This document shows positions 29,872 through 36,542 of a stretch of DNA of 36,542 bases, one piece after another. This DNA comes from a virus. A program made the translations under genes and the position numbers. The stretch lies in the IMG/VR virus record IMGVR_UViG_3300025083_000103, positions 1 to 36,542 of that record, one strand, 5' to 3'. Positions within the stretch are counted from its first letter, which is position 1. Every line of letters starts with the position of its first letter. The notes under the pieces were generated by a model. It did not search any database. It had not been told where the DNA came from and saw only the letters and a program-made list of their open reading frames with translations.

Positions 29872-30366
29872 ATGGCTGGCAATGCTTTACGTCAAAAGCG
29901 CACTGCTGAAATTATGCGCAGGGGTGGCGGTGAATATTTGCTTGAGTGGATTTTAGAAGCAAAATCTTTGCGCAGCTTGGCGACTGACTTAGATATGTCG
30001 GAGGGTGCGCTTAGAGTTTTAATAATGAAAAACCCAGAATTAACTGCGGCAGTCAATGAGGCGCGCAGGGACGCTGCTGATGCATACTTTGACAAGAACT
30101 TTGAGTTAATTGAGAATATGTCTGATCGCAGACAGCGTGAGGTTTTTGAGGCGCTGAGTGGCGAGGAAACGCGAGACGCAAGTGAGGCTAATGTATCGCA
30201 GATTGATTTGGGTATATTGAAGCAGCAGGTAGGCCAGAATAACCTTGCTGCGGCTGCTTGGAACCAGCAAAGGTATGGCAATAAGGGCAACCAGCAAATC
30301 AACATTAATATCGGTGATTTTCATTTAGATGCGCTGCGTAAAACAAAGGTGATTGACCATGAGTGA
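29872..30366 (+). CDS. terS: terminase small subunit
   Basis: A 164-residue protein with ribosome site AAGAAGGATTTGGT. The N-terminal half (EYLLEWILEAKSLRSLATDL, then DMSEGALRVLIMKNPELTAA) is a helix-turn-helix DNA-binding domain of small-terminase type. It is followed by a helical oligomerisation region and a basic, Asn/Gln-rich C terminus (WNQQRYGNKGNQQININIGD). It recognises the packaging site and stimulates the large subunit. Its end overlaps the terL start by 8 bases. Confidence 0.82.
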   Translation: MAGNALRQKRTAEIMRRGGGEYLLEWILEAKSLRSLATDLDMSEGALRVLIMKNPELTAAVNEARRDAADAYFDKNFELIENMSDRRQREVFEALSGEETRDASEANVSQIDLGILKQQVGQNNLAAAAWNQQRYGNKGNQQININIGDFHLDALRKTKVIDHE

Positions 30367-31765
30367 GAATGCGCAGAACACGATGCTGCAGTTCGTTGAG
30401 CGGTACGGCAAAAAGCCTGCTTTATTTGTGCAGGAAGTGCTTGGCGTGGAGCCATTGCCGTATCAGGCGGAATTTCTGGAAGCGATTGCGTCTGGCGAAC
30501 GCAAGATTAGCATTCGGTCTGGTCATGGTACTGGTAAGTCTACAGCAGCATCGTGGGCAATGCTATGGTATTTTTTGATGCATTACCCAAATAAAGTTGT
30601 TGTAACTGCGCCAACTTCTAGTCAGCTTTTTGATGCGTTGTTTGCAGAGCTAAAGCGCTGGATAAATGAGCTTCCAGAGGGCTTGCAGAGCATACTGAAC
30701 ACCAAGTCTGACCGTGTTGAGCATACCTCTGCACCTGCAGAGATGTTTATATCTGCTAGAACAAGCCGTGCAGAAACGCCAGAAGCCTTGGCTGGTGTTC
30801 ACTCAGAGCATGTTATGTTGGTGGTGGATGAAGCCTCTGGTGTGCCTGAGCAGGTATTTGAGGCTGCTGCTGGGTCTATGTCAGGTCATAACGCGACTAC
30901 GATTATGCTGAGCAACCCTACGCGAAGCAGCGGTACGTTTTTCGAAAGCCAGACGCGCATGGCAGATAGCTGGTGGACACGCCGTTGGTCATGCGTGGAT
31001 AGCCCCTTAGTTAGCGATGAGTTTGTTGATGAGATGCGCTTGCGCTATGGTGAGGAAAGCAATGCGTTTCGCATTCGTGTTCTGGGCGAGTTTCCTCTTG
31101 CGGATGATGACACGATTATCCCGTTTCATCTTGTGGAGGCAGCAACTCATCGTGACGTTGAAGTAGACATAGAGCGAAAACCTGTTTGGGCTGTCGATCC
31201 TGCTCGTTTTGGTTCTGATAGAACTGCGTTTTGCAAGCGTGTAGGCAATGTTATCACTGAAGTTAAAAGCTGGCGTGGCTTAGATTTGATGCAAACTGTT
31301 GGTCGCGTGATGGCGGAATATGAAGCACTAAATCCAAGCGCAAGACCTTCAGAGATATTGGTTGATAGTATCGGCGTTGGCGCTGGAGTTGTTGATCGGC
31401 TTAGGGAGCTAGGTGCTCCTGTGCGAGGTGTAAATGTTGCCGAAAGTCCAAGTATGGGCGAAACTTACAATAATCTTAGAACTGAGCTTTGGTTTAAAAC
31501 GAAAGCGTGGTTAGAGGATCGTAGCTGCAAGGTACCAAAAGATGACGAGCTTTTGGCTGACCTTACAAGCATACGTTACAGTTTTACTTCTTCAGGGAAA
31601 ATGGCAGCGGAAAGCAAGGATCAGATGAGAAAGCGCGGGCTTCGATCTCCTGACCTTGCGGATGCTGTGTGTTTAACTATGGCATCAGATGCCGCAACTG
31701 CCCTTTCTGGTCCAATGACGACTTGGCGTGGCGAGCTGCGGCGCGGTTTAAAGGGCATTGCTTGA
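30359..31765 (+). CDS. terL: terminase large subunit
   Basis: A 468-residue packaging motor. ATG at 30359 (MSENAQNTMLQF) is preferred to the upstream TTG because AAGGTGA lies 7 bases before it. Walker A is SGHGTGKST (residues about 53-61). Walker B-type VMLVVDEASG is near 152-161. The coupling motif follows in TIMLSNPTRSSG. The nuclease domain has AVDPARFGSDRT with the first metal-binding Asp, ILVDSIGVGAGVVDRLRELG, and the C-terminal DLADAVCLT Asp. It cuts and translocates DNA into the procapsid through the portal. Confidence 0.95.
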   Translation: MSENAQNTMLQFVERYGKKPALFVQEVLGVEPLPYQAEFLEAIASGERKISIRSGHGTGKSTAASWAMLWYFLMHYPNKVVVTAPTSSQLFDALFAELKRWINELPEGLQSILNTKSDRVEHTSAPAEMFISARTSRAETPEALAGVHSEHVMLVVDEASGVPEQVFEAAAGSMSGHNATTIMLSNPTRSSGTFFESQTRMADSWWTRRWSCVDSPLVSDEFVDEMRLRYGEESNAFRIRVLGEFPLADDDTIIPFHLVEAATHRDVEVDIERKPVWAVDPARFGSDRTAFCKRVGNVITEVKSWRGLDLMQTVGRVMAEYEALNPSARPSEILVDSIGVGAGVVDRLRELGAPVRGVNVAESPSMGETYNNLRTELWFKTKAWLEDRSCKVPKDDELLADLTSIRYSFTSSGKMAAESKDQMRKRGLRSPDLADAVCLTMASDAATALSGPMTTWRGELRRGLKGIA

Positions 31766-32239
31766 TTAGCTGCCATGCCTATCAGAAAACCCGCCTAGTT
31801 GTTGTTCGGCGGCTTTTCTTGCTGCAATAGCTTGTTGCTTTGTCTTAAATGTTCCAATCTGCTTTTCTTTTATTTTTGCGATCCACTTGTCTTTCTTTTT
31901 ACTTACACCAACGTGCCCGCTTGTATTATCTGATCTAAGTTTGGCATTTCTTTGATTTTCGGACCTTGTGACAACTCGTAGATTTTTAAATCTATTGTCG
32001 GAGCGATTTCCATTTATATGGTCGACTTCGCCATTAGGCCATTCTCCTAAAGTAATAGCCATAGCAACTCTATGAGCAGTAAGGGTTTTGGTTCCTATAG
32101 CTCCCTTGAGATATCCACTGTGATGTACGTTTGTAAAAACTTGTTTCTTAGTTCGCCGCGAAAACAAAAATCCTGTATCTGGATCGTAGCTCAGCTTATT
32201 GCGCAATTCTTCAATGCTTGGTAAGTTTTGTTTAGCCAT
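31766..32239 (-). CDS. HNH homing endonuclease with AP2-like DNA-binding tail
   Basis: A 157-residue protein. The N-terminal part has YDPDTGFLFSRR and TAHRVAMAITLG. The HNH core is GEVDHINGNRSDNRFKNLRV with His in DHINGN and the helix VTRSENQRN. The tail (SGHVGVSKKKDKWIAKIKEK, then IGTFKTKQQAIAARKAAEQQ) is an AP2/NUMOD-like DNA-binding module. It is the only minus-strand gene in the late block and abuts the terL stop with no gap. This is typical of a mobile homing endonuclease inserted next to terminase. Strong ribosome site AGGAGGGGCGTT. Confidence 0.9.
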   Translation of the reverse strand: MAKQNLPSIEELRNKLSYDPDTGFLFSRRTKKQVFTNVHHSGYLKGAIGTKTLTAHRVAMAITLGEWPNGEVDHINGNRSDNRFKNLRVVTRSENQRNAKLRSDNTSGHVGVSKKKDKWIAKIKEKQIGTFKTKQQAIAARKAAEQQLGGFSDRHGS

Positions 32240-32269
32240 AACGCCCCTCCTATGGGCTGGTTGGTTAGA

Positions 32270-32328
32270 GGCTTACTTATGCGTCAACATAAGTGAGCCT
32301 TGCTGGTATGTTATCAAACCTTTAAATT
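32270..32328 (+). promoter_or_regulatory. hairpin and candidate promoter for the small basic-protein genes
   Basis: GGCTTACTTATG (32270-32281) pairs with CATAAGTGAGCC (32288-32299) over 11 of 12 positions. Just after it, TTGCTG (32300-32305) stands 17 bases before TAAATT (32323-32328), a moderate sigma70-type promoter reading right toward 32409. A promoter here would restore transcription after the minus-strand insertion. Not experimentally supported. Confidence 0.45.
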
Positions 32329-32408
32329 ATTTCAATAAATATAAGAAAAATCACGGACGTTGATGCAAAACAAGTAATGTGATACGTTTGCAGCAAAAGG
32401 AGATCACT

Positions 32409-32513
32409 ATGGCCTATAAGTCTAAATCTTTTTCACCGCCCAAGAGTTGCCCGATGAAAGCTGCGTGTAAACGTGCTGGTAAGTGCCTTGGTATGAAGCA
32501 TAGCAAAAAGTAA
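32409..32513 (+). CDS. tiny basic Cys-containing protein
   Basis: A 34-residue ORF with strong ribosome site AAGGAGATCACT: MAYKSKSFSPPKSCPMKAAC then KRAGKCLGMKHSKK. It is Lys-rich with three cysteines six residues apart, as in small zinc-binding or DNA-binding phage peptides. It shares one base with the next start (TAATG). Coding status is supported by ribosome site and coupling. Confidence 0.65.
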   Translation: MAYKSKSFSPPKSCPMKAACKRAGKCLGMKHSKK

Positions 32514-32674
32514 TGCCTGCAGCAAAAAAGAAATCGTCTAGCCCAAAGCCCAAAAACCCAGCGCTGTATGCTAGGGTAAAGGCAGAGGCTAAGAAGAAGT
32601 TTAAGGTTTATCCTTCTGCGTATGCCAATGGCTGGCTGGTGCGTGAGTATAAGAAGCGTGGTGGAAAATACTGA
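32513..32674 (+). CDS. DUF5872-like small basic protein
   Basis: A 53-residue protein. The core (NPALYARVKAEAKKKFKVYP, then SAYANGWLVREYKKRGGKY) fits the DUF5872 family found in marine phages and giant viruses. The N terminus is Lys/Ser-rich. Coupled to both neighbours by TAATG and TGATG. Function is unknown; DNA association in the virion is plausible from its charge. Confidence 0.78.
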   Translation: MPAAKKKSSSPKPKNPALYARVKAEAKKKFKVYPSAYANGWLVREYKKRGGKY

Positions 32675-32895
32675 TGGCTAAGAAGCCTAAAGGTGGTTTA
32701 ACCAAGTGGTTCAAGGAAGATTGGCGCGATGTTAAAACAGGTAAGAAATGTGGTCGAAGCGGCAAGAAAGATGCTGGCAGACCTTATCCTGCGTGTCGCC
32801 CAGCAAGTAAAGCTAAGTCTGCATCGGCTAAGTCTGCTGCTAAAAAGAAAACAGGACCAGCAAGAATAAGCTGGAAGAAAAAAGGTAAGAAGTAA
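32674..32895 (+). CDS. DUF6321-like small basic protein
   Basis: A 73-residue protein. Its N-terminal part (GGLTKWFKEDWRDVKTGKKC, then GRSGKKDAGRPYPACRPASK) fits the DUF6321-like motif with WF...W, CGR and YPxCRP, which usually neighbours DUF5872 genes in phages and giant viruses. The C terminus is a Lys/Ala-rich tail. Start in a TGATG overlap. May condense or protect DNA; inference only. Confidence 0.75.
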   Translation: MAKKPKGGLTKWFKEDWRDVKTGKKCGRSGKKDAGRPYPACRPASKAKSASAKSAAKKKTGPARISWKKKGKK

Positions 32896-32899
32896 TGTG

Positions 32900-33091
32900 A
32901 TGTTTACTGCATTTGTTCTCTTATGCGCCCAGAATTACTGCTTTGCAGTCGGTGGTCCTGCGTATGTCGATGAGAATGAATGCATAGCGGATTTCATGCA
33001 GAACGGGGTTCCCTCTTTGCAGTTGAAATATCCAACGTATACAATCACGCAGGTTAAGTGTTATGAATGGGAAAAACAGATAAGGTCGTAA
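32900..33091 (+). CDS. small exported Cys-containing protein
   Basis: A 63-residue protein. ATG at 32900 is preferred to the GTG one codon before. The N terminus is a short hydrophobic signal-like segment (MFTAFVLLCAQNYCFAVGG). The mature part has ENECIADFMQNG and ITQVKCYEWEKQ, a probable disulfide pair. The layout resembles the 54-residue protein at 17752. It could be secreted to the periplasm; function is unknown. Confidence 0.62.
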   Translation: MFTAFVLLCAQNYCFAVGGPAYVDENECIADFMQNGVPSLQLKYPTYTITQVKCYEWEKQIRS

Positions 33092-33092
33092 A

Positions 33093-34154
33093 ATGAAAGC
33101 AGGAGCAGCATTAGGATTACTCGCTGGCTTAGGTGCGTTGAATGCACTGGGTGGTGGCAAAAACGGCACAGGCAAGCGCTTCACTGGCTTGATGGACATG
33201 CTAGACGGTGGTGGCGCAGGTGCGTCTGGAGATAAGTTTGAGGGCGGTGGCTTGCTGTCCATGCTAGGCAATCTCTTTGCTAAACCGCTTGAAGCGCAGG
33301 ATAATGTTGAGCGCATTGCTGCTGACACGAATGCGACTAAAGCTGTGACAAAAACGCTTGAGGATATGGCTAAGGGCGGCGCACTTACATCTCGACTAGA
33401 CGGTAAGGACGGCTTACTTTCACCTGTTGTCCCCGTTGCGTCTGATCCTCGCAGCTTTCAGCAAGGAACGGAGCCATCTACGCTTACTGAGGCGCAAAAA
33501 GAAGCTATTGTTATGGGACAGGCCATGCCTTCTGCTGAATTTGATCCTCGTAATTTTCAGCAAGGGACAGAGCCGTCAACTCTCACAGAAAATCAACGTA
33601 TGCGTGCTGCTGGCATTCTTGCTGGGCAAGCGGCTATGGCACCTGTTACGCAAGCCCAGCTTCAAGGCGGCGCTGAAAGCCTTGCAAATGCGTCTAATGT
33701 TTTAAATAGTCAGGGCGCTATTGAAACGCCAACAATGCCAAAAACTCCTGACCCTATGGGGTTATTCGCTCGCCAAACAATGATGCCACCAGCAGCAACC
33801 AATATGGATACCCCTGACGTAAGCGCCCTGCTTGACGTTCCTTCCACGCCACCAAATGAAGCGCAAGCAATGCTGCAGTCCTTGTCAGCAACAATACCTC
33901 AGAGGGCAATGGAAAATGATCCTGCAATTGTACAAGGGTACAAGGATTATGTAATTTCTGGCGGCAGAGATGACTACTCGACTTACTACAAAGGTCGCCC
34001 TGAGTATCAGGCGGAGCGTCAATTATTTACTGAAACAGGCGGCACTTTATTTGATTTGCCTGAAACAGAGCGCAAACGCCTTATAGCTGAGCGTGCTGAT
34101 ATTATTCGCAGAGAGGCACAAAAACCAATGCCATTTACAGGACCAGCATTCTAA
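33093..34154 (+). CDS. virion protein with internal repeat, unknown
   Basis: A 353-residue protein. The N terminus is Gly/Ala/Leu-rich (MKAGAALGLLAGLGALNALG), a likely membrane-interacting helix. A 16-residue unit, DPRSFQQGTEPSTLTE, occurs at residue 118 and again (one change) at 151, exactly 33 residues later. The C-terminal part (YKDYVISGGRDDYSTYYKGR) is mixed. It lies between small basic genes and the adaptor, so a virion or ejection function is plausible. It ends by overlapping the next ATG by one base. Confidence 0.68.
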   Translation: MKAGAALGLLAGLGALNALGGGKNGTGKRFTGLMDMLDGGGAGASGDKFEGGGLLSMLGNLFAKPLEAQDNVERIAADTNATKAVTKTLEDMAKGGALTSRLDGKDGLLSPVVPVASDPRSFQQGTEPSTLTEAQKEAIVMGQAMPSAEFDPRNFQQGTEPSTLTENQRMRAAGILAGQAAMAPVTQAQLQGGAESLANASNVLNSQGAIETPTMPKTPDPMGLFARQTMMPPAATNMDTPDVSALLDVPSTPPNEAQAMLQSLSATIPQRAMENDPAIVQGYKDYVISGGRDDYSTYYKGRPEYQAERQLFTETGGTLFDLPETERKRLIAERADIIRREAQKPMPFTGPAF

Positions 34155-34372
34155 TGCCAGTTAAGCGCAAAAAAATACCTGCAAGCAGAAAGTACGCTAA
34201 TGGCACGACTTACAAAGACAGTCAGGGCAAAACTCATAAGCGTACATCTGCTAAAGGTACAAAGCGTGGTGACGCTTATTGCGCTCGTTCTAGCGGTCAA
34301 AAGCAAACTGAAAAAGTTAAGGTTCGCCGCAAGGCTTGGGGCTGTCGCGGTAAAAAATCAGTGAGAAGTTAA
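34154..34372 (+). CDS. small basic protein related to GTKRGDAYCARS family
   Basis: A 72-residue protein coupled to the preceding gene (TAATG). It is strongly basic with MPVKRKKIPASRKYANGTTY and TKRGDAYCARSSGQKQTEKV, the latter a motif seen in small phage proteins near DUF5872/DUF6321 genes. It ends AWGCRGKKSVRS with the second cysteine. Together with 32409-32895 it makes four Lys-rich small genes around one virion gene. DNA-binding is inferred from charge. Confidence 0.7.
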   Translation: MPVKRKKIPASRKYANGTTYKDSQGKTHKRTSAKGTKRGDAYCARSSGQKQTEKVKVRRKAWGCRGKKSVRS

Positions 34373-34993
34373 ATGGCTATTACAACCTATGCAGAACTTA
34401 AAACCGCAATAGCCAACTGGCTAAACCGTGATGATCTTACGAGTGTTATCTCTGATTTCATCAGTCTGGCTGAAGCCGACATGGATCGCAAAGTGCGTCA
34501 CTGGCGTATGGAGAAACGCGCGACTGTGCAGCTAGATGACCAGTATTCGCGCGTACCCTCCGATTGGCTGGAAAGCATTCGCTTTTACCTGTCTGGCGGT
34601 CAGACGTATGAGCTGCGTCAAACCTCGCACTCTGACATGATTAATCGCCGCATGAACGCTGCAAACGTGGCGGGTCGTCCCCAGTATTTCACGATGAGCG
34701 ATGGCGCGTTTGAAATCTTTCCAACGCCTGACACTGCGTACACGGCAGAGCTTCTGTATTACGGCAGAACGGCTGCGCTGTCTGACGGCAACACGAGCAA
34801 CTGGGTTCTTGAATATGCGCCTGATGCGTATCTGTATGGTGCGCTTGTGCATTCCGCGCCTTATCTTGTTGACGATCAGCGCACTCAGATTTGGGCATCA
34901 CTCTATCAATCTGCCATAGACAATGTTAATATGGCATCGGACAAAGCGCGTAGTACGACTTCGGGTATGCGCATGAGCATTAGGAGTTACTGA
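34373..34993 (+). CDS. head-tail adaptor protein (SU10-adaptor-like)
   Basis: A 206-residue helical protein beginning MAITTYAELKTAIANWLNRD, then ISDFISLAEADMDRKVRHW. This pattern is typical of the SU10-type adaptor (gp4/gp11-like connector family), which forms the ring below the portal. It continues VPSDWLESIRFYLSGGQTYE and a beta segment (YTAELLYYGRTAALSDGNTS), and ends in helices. Correct length and near structural genes. It overlaps the next gene by one base (ATGA region). Confidence 0.82.
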   Translation: MAITTYAELKTAIANWLNRDDLTSVISDFISLAEADMDRKVRHWRMEKRATVQLDDQYSRVPSDWLESIRFYLSGGQTYELRQTSHSDMINRRMNAANVAGRPQYFTMSDGAFEIFPTPDTAYTAELLYYGRTAALSDGNTSNWVLEYAPDAYLYGALVHSAPYLVDDQRTQIWASLYQSAIDNVNMASDKARSTTSGMRMSIRSY

Positions 34994-35406
34994 TGAGCTT
35001 TACAGATTATCTTGAGGACAAAATCCTTGACCACGTTTTTGGCGGCAATGCTTATACTGCGCCAGCTACGCTTTACGTTGGCCTGCATACATCTGCCTCT
35101 AGCGATAGCGCGGCGGGTACGGAAGTGTCTGGCGGATCATACGCGCGTCAGACTGCGGCGTTTACTGTGAGCGGCACAAGCCCGACAGAGGCAACAACGG
35201 GTTCAGCTATTGAGTTTCCCACGGCGACAGCTTCTTGGGGTACGGTGACATATGCAGGCGTGTATGACGCGTCTTCTGGCGGCAACTTGCTTGCTTATGC
35301 TGAGTTGACCGATCCAAGCGACTTTACGACTGCGCTACCTAAAGCAATAGACACGGGCGACATATTCCGCATTTCGGCAGGTAATCTTAAAATACGATTG
35401 GACTAA
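34993..35406 (+). CDS. Gp80-like tail appendage protein (complete copy)
   Basis: A 137-residue protein: MSFTDYLEDKILDHVFGGNA, then YTAPATLYVGLHTSASSDSA, then TEVSGGSYARQTAAFTVSG. This is the full-length homologue of the fragment at 1-273. The family occurs just before fibre genes and resembles mycobacteriophage Gp80-type tail proteins. It starts one base inside the adaptor stop and leads into the fibre at 35410 after 3 bases. From residue 88 on it differs from the first copy mostly at silent or conservative positions. Confidence 0.8.
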   Translation: MSFTDYLEDKILDHVFGGNAYTAPATLYVGLHTSASSDSAAGTEVSGGSYARQTAAFTVSGTSPTEATTGSAIEFPTATASWGTVTYAGVYDASSGGNLLAYAELTDPSDFTTALPKAIDTGDIFRISAGNLKIRLD

Positions 35407-35528
35407 TCTATGTCTACGATTGTTACACGTTCTGGAAAGGGTTCGCCGCTAACCCATGCCGAAGTTGATAGTAACTTCACTAATCTAAATACGGATAAGC
35501 TGGAGCTATCTGGCGGCACCATGACGGG
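35134..35528. repeat. long direct repeat, copy 2 (partner 1-395)
   Basis: The partner of the repeat at the window start, with the full Gp80-like gene upstream. The first mismatch is at 35253 (T versus C at 120). The shared part ends in the fibre anchor (LELSGGTMTG), after which each copy continues into a different fibre body. Confidence 0.95.
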
Positions 35529-36495
35529 CGATGTAGGCCACGGCGATAACGTCAAGGCGACTTTTGGTGCATCTGCGGATTTGCAGGTGTATCACACAGG
35601 TTCTGCGTCTTTTATTGATGATCAGGGGACAGGTAGTCTTAACATACGAGGCAATAACCTAAACTTGCAAAACGCTTCAGGTGAAGCCTATGTATCCTGC
35701 GTATCTGATAGTCATGTTTACTTGTATCACGACAATACTTGGAAACTTCGTATTGATGCCACAGGAATTAACGTGGCGGGTACTGTCGTTGCTGATGGTG
35801 CGGCAATAGGCGAAAGCACAGCCAACACAACAGTTACAGTCGGTGGGTCATATGCTAACGGCATTGAACTTGCGCAAAATGGAATTGATGCAACTTCATC
35901 TGCTCGTCTATTCTTTGATAGCACAACAGACGCATCGGCTATCTATAACTCTGGCGGCGACTTAACGATTGCTAAAGCCGCAACAGTTGGCAGTTCATCT
36001 GGCAACAAGAGCATGACTTTAGGCTCCAACGGCGACATCAGCTTCTACGAGGACACAGGCACGACTGCAAAGCTAATTTGGGACGCTTCCGACGAAGCAC
36101 TTGAGTTTGGCGACAACGTAAAGGCGACTTTTGGTGCTTCAGCAGATTTGCAGGTGTATCACGATGGGTCTAATAGTTATATTGCAGACACTGGGACAGG
36201 CAACCTAATTATTAAGGGGACAAACCTTCAATTAAAGTCATATTTTGCAGATGAAATGTTTCTTGCTGGAAATCAAAACGGTGCAGTGACAATTTATTAT
36301 GACGGAGTAGCCAAACTCGCCACCACCAGCACAGGCATCTCAGTCACAGGCTCAGTAGAACTCAACGGATGGACAGTCACCGAAAGCGGCGGTTCCCTTT
36401 ATTTCGCCACAGGCGGCACCAACAAGATGAAACTAGACGCATCTGGCAACTTGGATGTTGTCGGCTCAGTCAACTCTAACGCAACCATAACGTAA
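35410..36495 (+). CDS. second tail fibre, S74-lacking allele or paralogue
   Basis: A 361-residue fibre. Residues 1-40 are the anchor shared with the fibre at 277. The body has the unit FGASADLQVYHxGS twice (about residues 50-63 and 240-253), followed by TGTGxLxIxG strands. Near residue 300-312 it shares VAKLATTSTGISVTGSV with the other fibre, including a 22-base identical DNA stretch (36307-36330 versus 608-631). It has no S74 domain or beta-roll array, ending SVNSNATIT. The stop is followed by AGGAG and a new ATG at 36525. Confidence 0.82.
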   Translation: MSTIVTRSGKGSPLTHAEVDSNFTNLNTDKLELSGGTMTGDVGHGDNVKATFGASADLQVYHTGSASFIDDQGTGSLNIRGNNLNLQNASGEAYVSCVSDSHVYLYHDNTWKLRIDATGINVAGTVVADGAAIGESTANTTVTVGGSYANGIELAQNGIDATSSARLFFDSTTDASAIYNSGGDLTIAKAATVGSSSGNKSMTLGSNGDISFYEDTGTTAKLIWDASDEALEFGDNVKATFGASADLQVYHDGSNSYIADTGTGNLIIKGTNLQLKSYFADEMFLAGNQNGAVTIYYDGVAKLATTSTGISVTGSVELNGWTVTESGGSLYFATGGTNKMKLDASGNLDVVGSVNSNATIT

Positions 36496-36524
36496 TACAC
36501 ATTAGCTAATAGGAGTATCCGAAG

Positions 36525-36542
36525 ATGGCTATAAAAGTAAGC
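36525..36542 (+). CDS. start of the next gene (truncated at window end)
   Basis: ATG at 36525 follows AATAGGAGTATCCGAAG, a good ribosome site. Only MAIKVS is visible. It shares its first 10 bases with the fibre-like gene at 3868 (ATGGCTATAA), so it may be its allele, which would then directly follow this shorter fibre. That is a weak inference from six codons. Confidence 0.5.

Follow-up and report, generated by a model that had tools for sequence, protein, structure and literature searches.

I-HmuI, an HNH nicking homing endonuclease of the SPO1 type (PDB 1u3e), is intron-encoded. It and the following groups are the known systems that most resemble the gene described here. The free-standing T4-type homing endonuclease genes (HEGs) of the mob/seg kind (mobE, segD, seg43) likewise lie between conserved genes, with displaced promoters within or beside the HEG; in T4 itself the intergenic HEGs displace promoters, and those of the downstream genes then sit inside the HEG (PMC2988022). 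HNH-AP2 HEGs (the Magnani type and the IPA-HNH of ICP1) share with our protein an N-terminal HNH and a C-terminal AP2 region and are found near essential genes, including terminase (PMC10448857). The I-HmuI-like HNHEs of lactococcal Skunavirus vary in presence between isolates and cluster by insertion site, and distinct clusters may share a site; the HNH protein encoded next to terL in Skunavirus is the universal HrdP, which is not of the homing type (PMC12724721). In the parts of the literature covered, no paper describes an HNH gene lying antisense at the stop codon of terL, which does not prove that none exists.

The window analysed covers positions 1 to 36,542 of a viral record (IMG/VR IMGVR_UViG_3300025083_000103). 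The carrier of the HNH gene at the end of its terL is a marine phage; a scan of genome contigs returned one relative, in a Rhodobacteraceae bin, too thin a basis for naming the host. The HNH gene is the ORF at 31766-32239 on the minus strand (157 aa, ATG start). terL, identified by its matches to Terminase_6N and other Pfam families and to phrog_2 (terminase large subunit, E 2e-43), closes with a TGA stop at 31763-31765, and the minus-strand HNH frame ends on the adjoining base 31766. The zero spacing of the original prediction is therefore correct (terL ends at 31765, the ORF runs from 31766), and so is its statement that this is the sole opposite-strand gene of the late block, since no other minus-strand ORF of at least 60 aa in 29872-36542 is free of overlap with a plus-strand ORF taken as a gene. 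The ribosome site said to belong to the HNH gene is present as the Shine-Dalgarno-like AGGAGGGG, 4 nt before the ATG. The features of the locus are as follows.

30353..31765, plus strand: terL (terminase large subunit), listed start TTG, with an ATG at about 30359
31766..32377, no strand assigned: whole insert, 612 bp, from the alignment with empty sites
32244..32251, minus strand: ribosome-binding-like AGGAGGGG of the HNH gene, read from the sequence
32268..32301, no strand assigned: hairpin with a 14-bp stem, just upstream of the HNH ribosome site
32308..32335, minus strand: promoter-like boxes of the HNH gene, TTGAAA-16-TAACAT with TG
32409..32514, plus strand: first small gene behind the insert, 34 aa, starting ATGGCCTATAAG

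The HNH protein matches PF13392 (HNH_3) with an E-value of 3.2e-17 and a score of 62 bits, well above the cut-off of 24.8; proteins of the IPA-HNH group, by contrast, are described as too divergent for the HNH_3 profile (PMC10448857). It also matches phrog_99 (HNH endonuclease, E 1.3e-54). I-HmuI is recovered from the single sequence with E 9e-5 and from a profile of 59 related HNH proteins with E 1.2e-7, and an AlphaFold model of the protein (mean pLDDT 85.5) has a Foldseek match to the same enzyme (E 2.7e-5). The catalytic HNH core is alike in the two proteins: D73, H74 and N95 align with D74, H75 and N96, the catalytic residues of I-HmuI (PMC12724721), and the alignment of the 59 proteins shows no variation at D73 and H74 and almost none at N95. 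Unlike I-HmuI, the window gene follows a stop codon with no intron involved, and the C-terminal region of its product is AP2-like. The 59-protein profile finds plant AP2 domains in the PDB (7wq5, E 5.1e-8; 7et4, E 7.3e-5); in Foldseek the AP2 likeness is weak on E-value (7et4, probability 0.99 but E 0.36), and a Pfam search of the protein found no AP2 match. The idea of a group I intron-encoded HNH gene was rejected because the terL frame is complete and the insert starts after its stop.

31949..32077, minus strand: HNH_3 catalytic domain, residues 55-97, including D73, H74 and N95
31790..31918, minus strand: C-terminal AP2-like DNA-binding region, about residues 108-150

Related loci were drawn from four terL scans of IMG/VR (best 80 loci per scan) and two HNH scans. 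Among the matches listed, at least 295 terL loci have the stop in view, 209 of them distinct, and the 139 with a terL identity of at least 75% and at least 60 nt of downstream sequence were tallied. The region from -50 to +1200 nt of the terL stop was searched with seven protein queries (E 1e-4); a gene of the window's family stands at the stop in 5 of the 139 distinct loci and is absent from 134 (among the matches listed), a count that would miss other homing genes since all seven queries belong to one HNH family. One occupied locus, L306, was retrieved with an HNH query; counting only what the terL scans found, 4 loci in 138 are occupied (among the matches listed). The occupied loci are the window type (L135 group), L002, L161, L306 and L254, and all five HNH genes sit on the opposite strand. 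The HNH protein of L002 is 90% and that of L254 59% identical to the window's, and L161 and L306 share one identical, longer HNH. In the window, L002 and L254 the distance between the terL and HNH stops is zero, and in L161/L306 the HNH frame runs 17 nt into the end of terL (4373-4389 of L161), antisense, with its TAA stop supplied by terL codons. Judged by the recurrence of opposite-strand abutment in L161/L306 and L254, the placement at the terL end is not a matter of chance.

Comparison with relatives that lack the gene, the check proposed at the outset, defines the insertion ends (612 bp in the window), and alignment with the empty sites bears out an insertion exactly at the end of terL. 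The window insert is bordered by the terL stop on the left and by TGTGATACG on the right; that of L002 measures 613 bp, and the right flank in both is TGTG(A/T)TA(C/G)G. These ends are uncertain by 3 nt, as the TAA triplet at the right end may be the old terL stop. Compared with the empty L156, its relative L161 has an insert of 600 bp flanked by TAG and TGTTGTRGCA, and L254 carries 523 bp before TGTTGCCG. In empty relatives a homologue of the small gene at 32409..32514 lies directly behind terL.

The empty sites have a feature that the insertion disrupts. A promoter-like TTGNNN-17-TGNTANNNT motif straddles the terL stop in 61 of the 134 empty loci (among the matches listed), about 0.002 per locus being expected from mononucleotide shuffles, and in none of the five occupied ones. 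The insertion splits this motif, and in the window and L002 the end of the insert contributes a TTGATG whose distance to the old downstream box is again exactly 17 nt.

32360..32388, plus strand: rebuilt promoter-like element of the downstream genes, TTGATG (insert), 17 nt, TACGTT (old flank)

The window holds 4 matches to the motif against 1.58 expected. Scored strictly, the motif has no match in L161 and L254; by eye, a TTG and a TATTGT box lie 17 nt apart behind the insert in both. The promoter-like boxes that had been noted past the gene are thus real as a comparative feature, although a generic sigma-70 scan alone does not rise above chance (2 found, 1.5 expected; promoter scans of such size give 1.3 to 1.5 chance matches). 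The further suggestion that they may restore downstream transcription draws good support from the way the motif is split and rebuilt, with promoter activity as a prediction. Most T4 HEGs are co-directional with their neighbours, whereas the window gene is antisense with promoter-like boxes of its own and its insert resupplies an upstream box; segD of the T4 type is, like the window gene, antisense in a structural region (PMC2988022).

The hairpin lies between the HNH promoter-like boxes and the exposed ribosome site, an arrangement like that of seg43 in Aeromonas phage 25, where a stable hairpin immediately precedes a ribosome site that is left open (PMC2988022). The window hairpin withstands a folding test: for the 81-nt stretch containing it, the plus strand has a folding energy of -32.6 kcal/mol (z -3.84, matched by 1 in 200 shuffles) and the minus strand a z of -2.75. 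L002 retains the stem (2345-2425) with the 6-nt loop inverted (CGTCAA in the window, TTGCCG in L002), and it has equivalent boxes (TTGAAA-16-TAGTAT with TG) upstream of the HNH gene on its own strand. A search of the window for a second copy of the hairpin found none. Scans of the window and L002 scored no terminator-like site at the terL end; a CCGCC/GGCGG stem inside the HNH 3' end folds, yet received no terminator score. An operator-like copy of the homing site, as known for I-TevI (PMC2988022), was not accepted for the insert after eight comparisons, the best with 6 of 300 shuffles as good and the better cases ranging from 6 to 63.

The end of terL itself differs between carriers and non-carriers. 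TerL of L002, with the gene, and of L003, without it, differ at 3 of 470 residues (465, 467 and 469), and their DNA differs at 14 of the 30 nt just before the terL stop against 16 of 570 nt further upstream. The window and L002 differ at 4 of these last 30 nt, so that the gene and the recoded terL tail form one haplotype.

31733..31765, plus strand: recoded last terL codons (GELRRGLKGIA*), without the TTGCGY box of empty relatives

At the fifth-last codon of terL, TTG is used in 77 of 77 full-length empty loci of at least 82% identity (among the matches listed) and TTA in the window and L002. This column is the least variable of 29 conserved Leu columns, the next having an entropy of 0.78 bit. 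At identities of at least 75% TTG is found in 109 of 136 empty loci (among the matches listed), and the constraint therefore belongs to the window's own clade.

Further upstream, identity to empty relatives drops inside terL from about 90% to about 70%. L002 and the empty L007 are 98.3% identical in terS, 96.1% over terL 1-750 and 70.1% over terL 821-1380, with a sharp break near terL nt 780, and identity returns to 94.4% over 500 nt beyond the insert; the window and L005 show an analogous pattern (90.4%, 69.2% and 84.6%). The drop within terL and the recovery past the insert mark the second half of terL and the insert as a tract of other ancestry.

31130..32377, no strand assigned: tract of different ancestry, second terL half and HNH insert, left end approximate

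The window, L002 and L003 share a chimeric TerL, with the break near nt 780: its first half is 96-99% identical in amino acids to the L005/L007/L043 group, and its second half is 100% identical among the three and about 91-92% like the L110/L123 group. The tract pattern fits what co-conversion during homing would leave, and ordinary recombination or gene loss in L003 would fit too. Since the same foreign half of terL is found in L003, which lacks the gene, homing is not required to explain the tract; L003 may have lost the gene, or the tract may have arrived first, and either history would fit as well as homing.

The HNH genes of the window and L002 differ by 59.7 synonymous and 21.3 nonsynonymous changes (dN/dS 0.052), and by this measure the gene is under purifying selection. 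Its dS (1.15) is similar to that of the second terL half (0.96), from which the gene is probably as old as the tract in both phages; having diverged as far as their flanks, the two copies give no sign of very recent transfer between them. Rather than being present in all relatives with neutral codon use, the gene is rare and has a G+C of 0.40 against 0.49 for terL, and in three lineages the HNH gene lies 9-10 points below its terL (0.40/0.49, 0.52/0.62, 0.51/0.60). On the terL trees the occupied state needs 3 changes (all three forced by starred branches in one tree), and L003 would add one; it is missing from both trees because its protein minus the tail equals that of L002. From one terL tree 21 rows were dropped, 20 as identical after the last 12 residues had been cut (L003 among them) and 1 as short. 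The HNH trees unite the window, L002 and L254 in one clade with support of 100/99 and place L161 outside it. All terL-site HNH genes are united in 0% and 4% of bootstrap trees; an AU test of one clade for all four does not reject it (p-AU 0.33). It is likely, on these phylogenies, that separate HNH groups colonised the same terL-end base twice.

Family, fold match, catalytic residues and presence in only 5 of 139 distinct related loci (among the matches listed) uphold the homing-type assignment, and we consider it highly probable that this is a free-standing, non-intron HNH-AP2 homing endonuclease gene; cutting, cut site, homing, immunity and promoter activity are what we infer for it. The HNH gene, with its own ribosome site and probable promoter, would be transcribed in the direction opposite to the late genes. 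When a carrier and a phage without the gene infect the same cell, the nuclease would introduce a nick or cut at the 3' end of the latter's terL, and repair templated by the carrier would then bring in the gene together with adjoining parts of terL. Carriers themselves should be immune, given their recoded terminal codons of terL and the interruption of the site, and the insert may persist because it leaves terL intact and resupplies the upstream box of the split promoter. That it targets an uninterrupted terL 3' end in rival phages, as originally proposed, is plausible in view of the recoded tail and the foreign tract. We hold as tentative, and rather doubtful, a more specific version in which the element targets a conserved late promoter across the terL stop, constrained both as TerL C-terminus and as upstream promoter box, and travels as a unit that combines the recoded tail, the nuclease gene and a substitute box; one step would then immunise the carrier, keep TerL whole and repair the promoter, and two HNH groups would have reached the same base independently.

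A position beside terL would also suit a packaging accessory nuclease that aids terminase cutting, such as HK97 gp74 or HrdP, which Skunavirus encodes between terL and portal, and roles of this sort for HNH proteins are reported or proposed in PMC12724721 and PMC10448857. HrdP, however, is found in all 89 Skunavirus genomes of one study (PMC12724721), whereas our gene is absent from 134 of 139 distinct related loci (among the matches listed), including L003 with its near-identical TerL; it is also on the opposite strand, and its product is of the I-HmuI/AP2 type. A terminase-associated HNH of the HK97 gp74 kind was rejected on the same count, as the gene is not a conserved companion of terminase. 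This rarity leads us to set packaging aside as the main explanation, and we rate it very improbable.

The gene might instead be a passive or dying passenger that entered together with part of terL when phages recombined in the ordinary way and that has ceased to home. The mosaic terL genes of these phages and the foreign terL half of L003, present without the gene, are what such a history would leave; the intact frame and catalytic residues, the dN/dS of 0.052 between the window and L002 and the occurrence of related genes at this very base in two other lineages of terL speak against it, and we think it unlikely. Least credible, to the point of being scarcely worth entertaining, is a recruited regulator, an AP2-bearing protein or antisense gene that would mainly tune terL and late transcription: the opposite strand, the hairpin and the promoter-like boxes around the gene would agree with it, but the gene is rarely present, its catalytic residues are kept and no terminator-like site is scored at the terL end. 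The homing endonuclease gene that we favour is of a well-known kind; exact stop-codon insertion in several lineages, a recoded tail and a split and rebuilt motif make it a good example and introduce no new principle. The naturally near-isogenic pair L002/L003 and the many empty sites resolved to a single base open the way to direct tests of homing, marker exclusion and promoter repair by an HEG of a marine phage. The locus also illustrates how a nuclease gene can become established next to a packaging gene and yet take no part in packaging, which matters for the annotation of HNH genes next to terL.

Behind the insert, at 32409-32895, lies a run of very short Lys-rich genes, one of them weakly DUF5872-like, whose number and identity vary strongly among relatives. 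Members of the same broad HNH family also occur elsewhere (L003 7891-8454, L073 8327-8890, L045 4891-5451, L041 5355-5855, and in L162 and L166-L172); in these other relatives they lie 2 to 3 kb past terL or some 2.5 kb ahead of it, so that the packaging region attracts HNH genes at several places.
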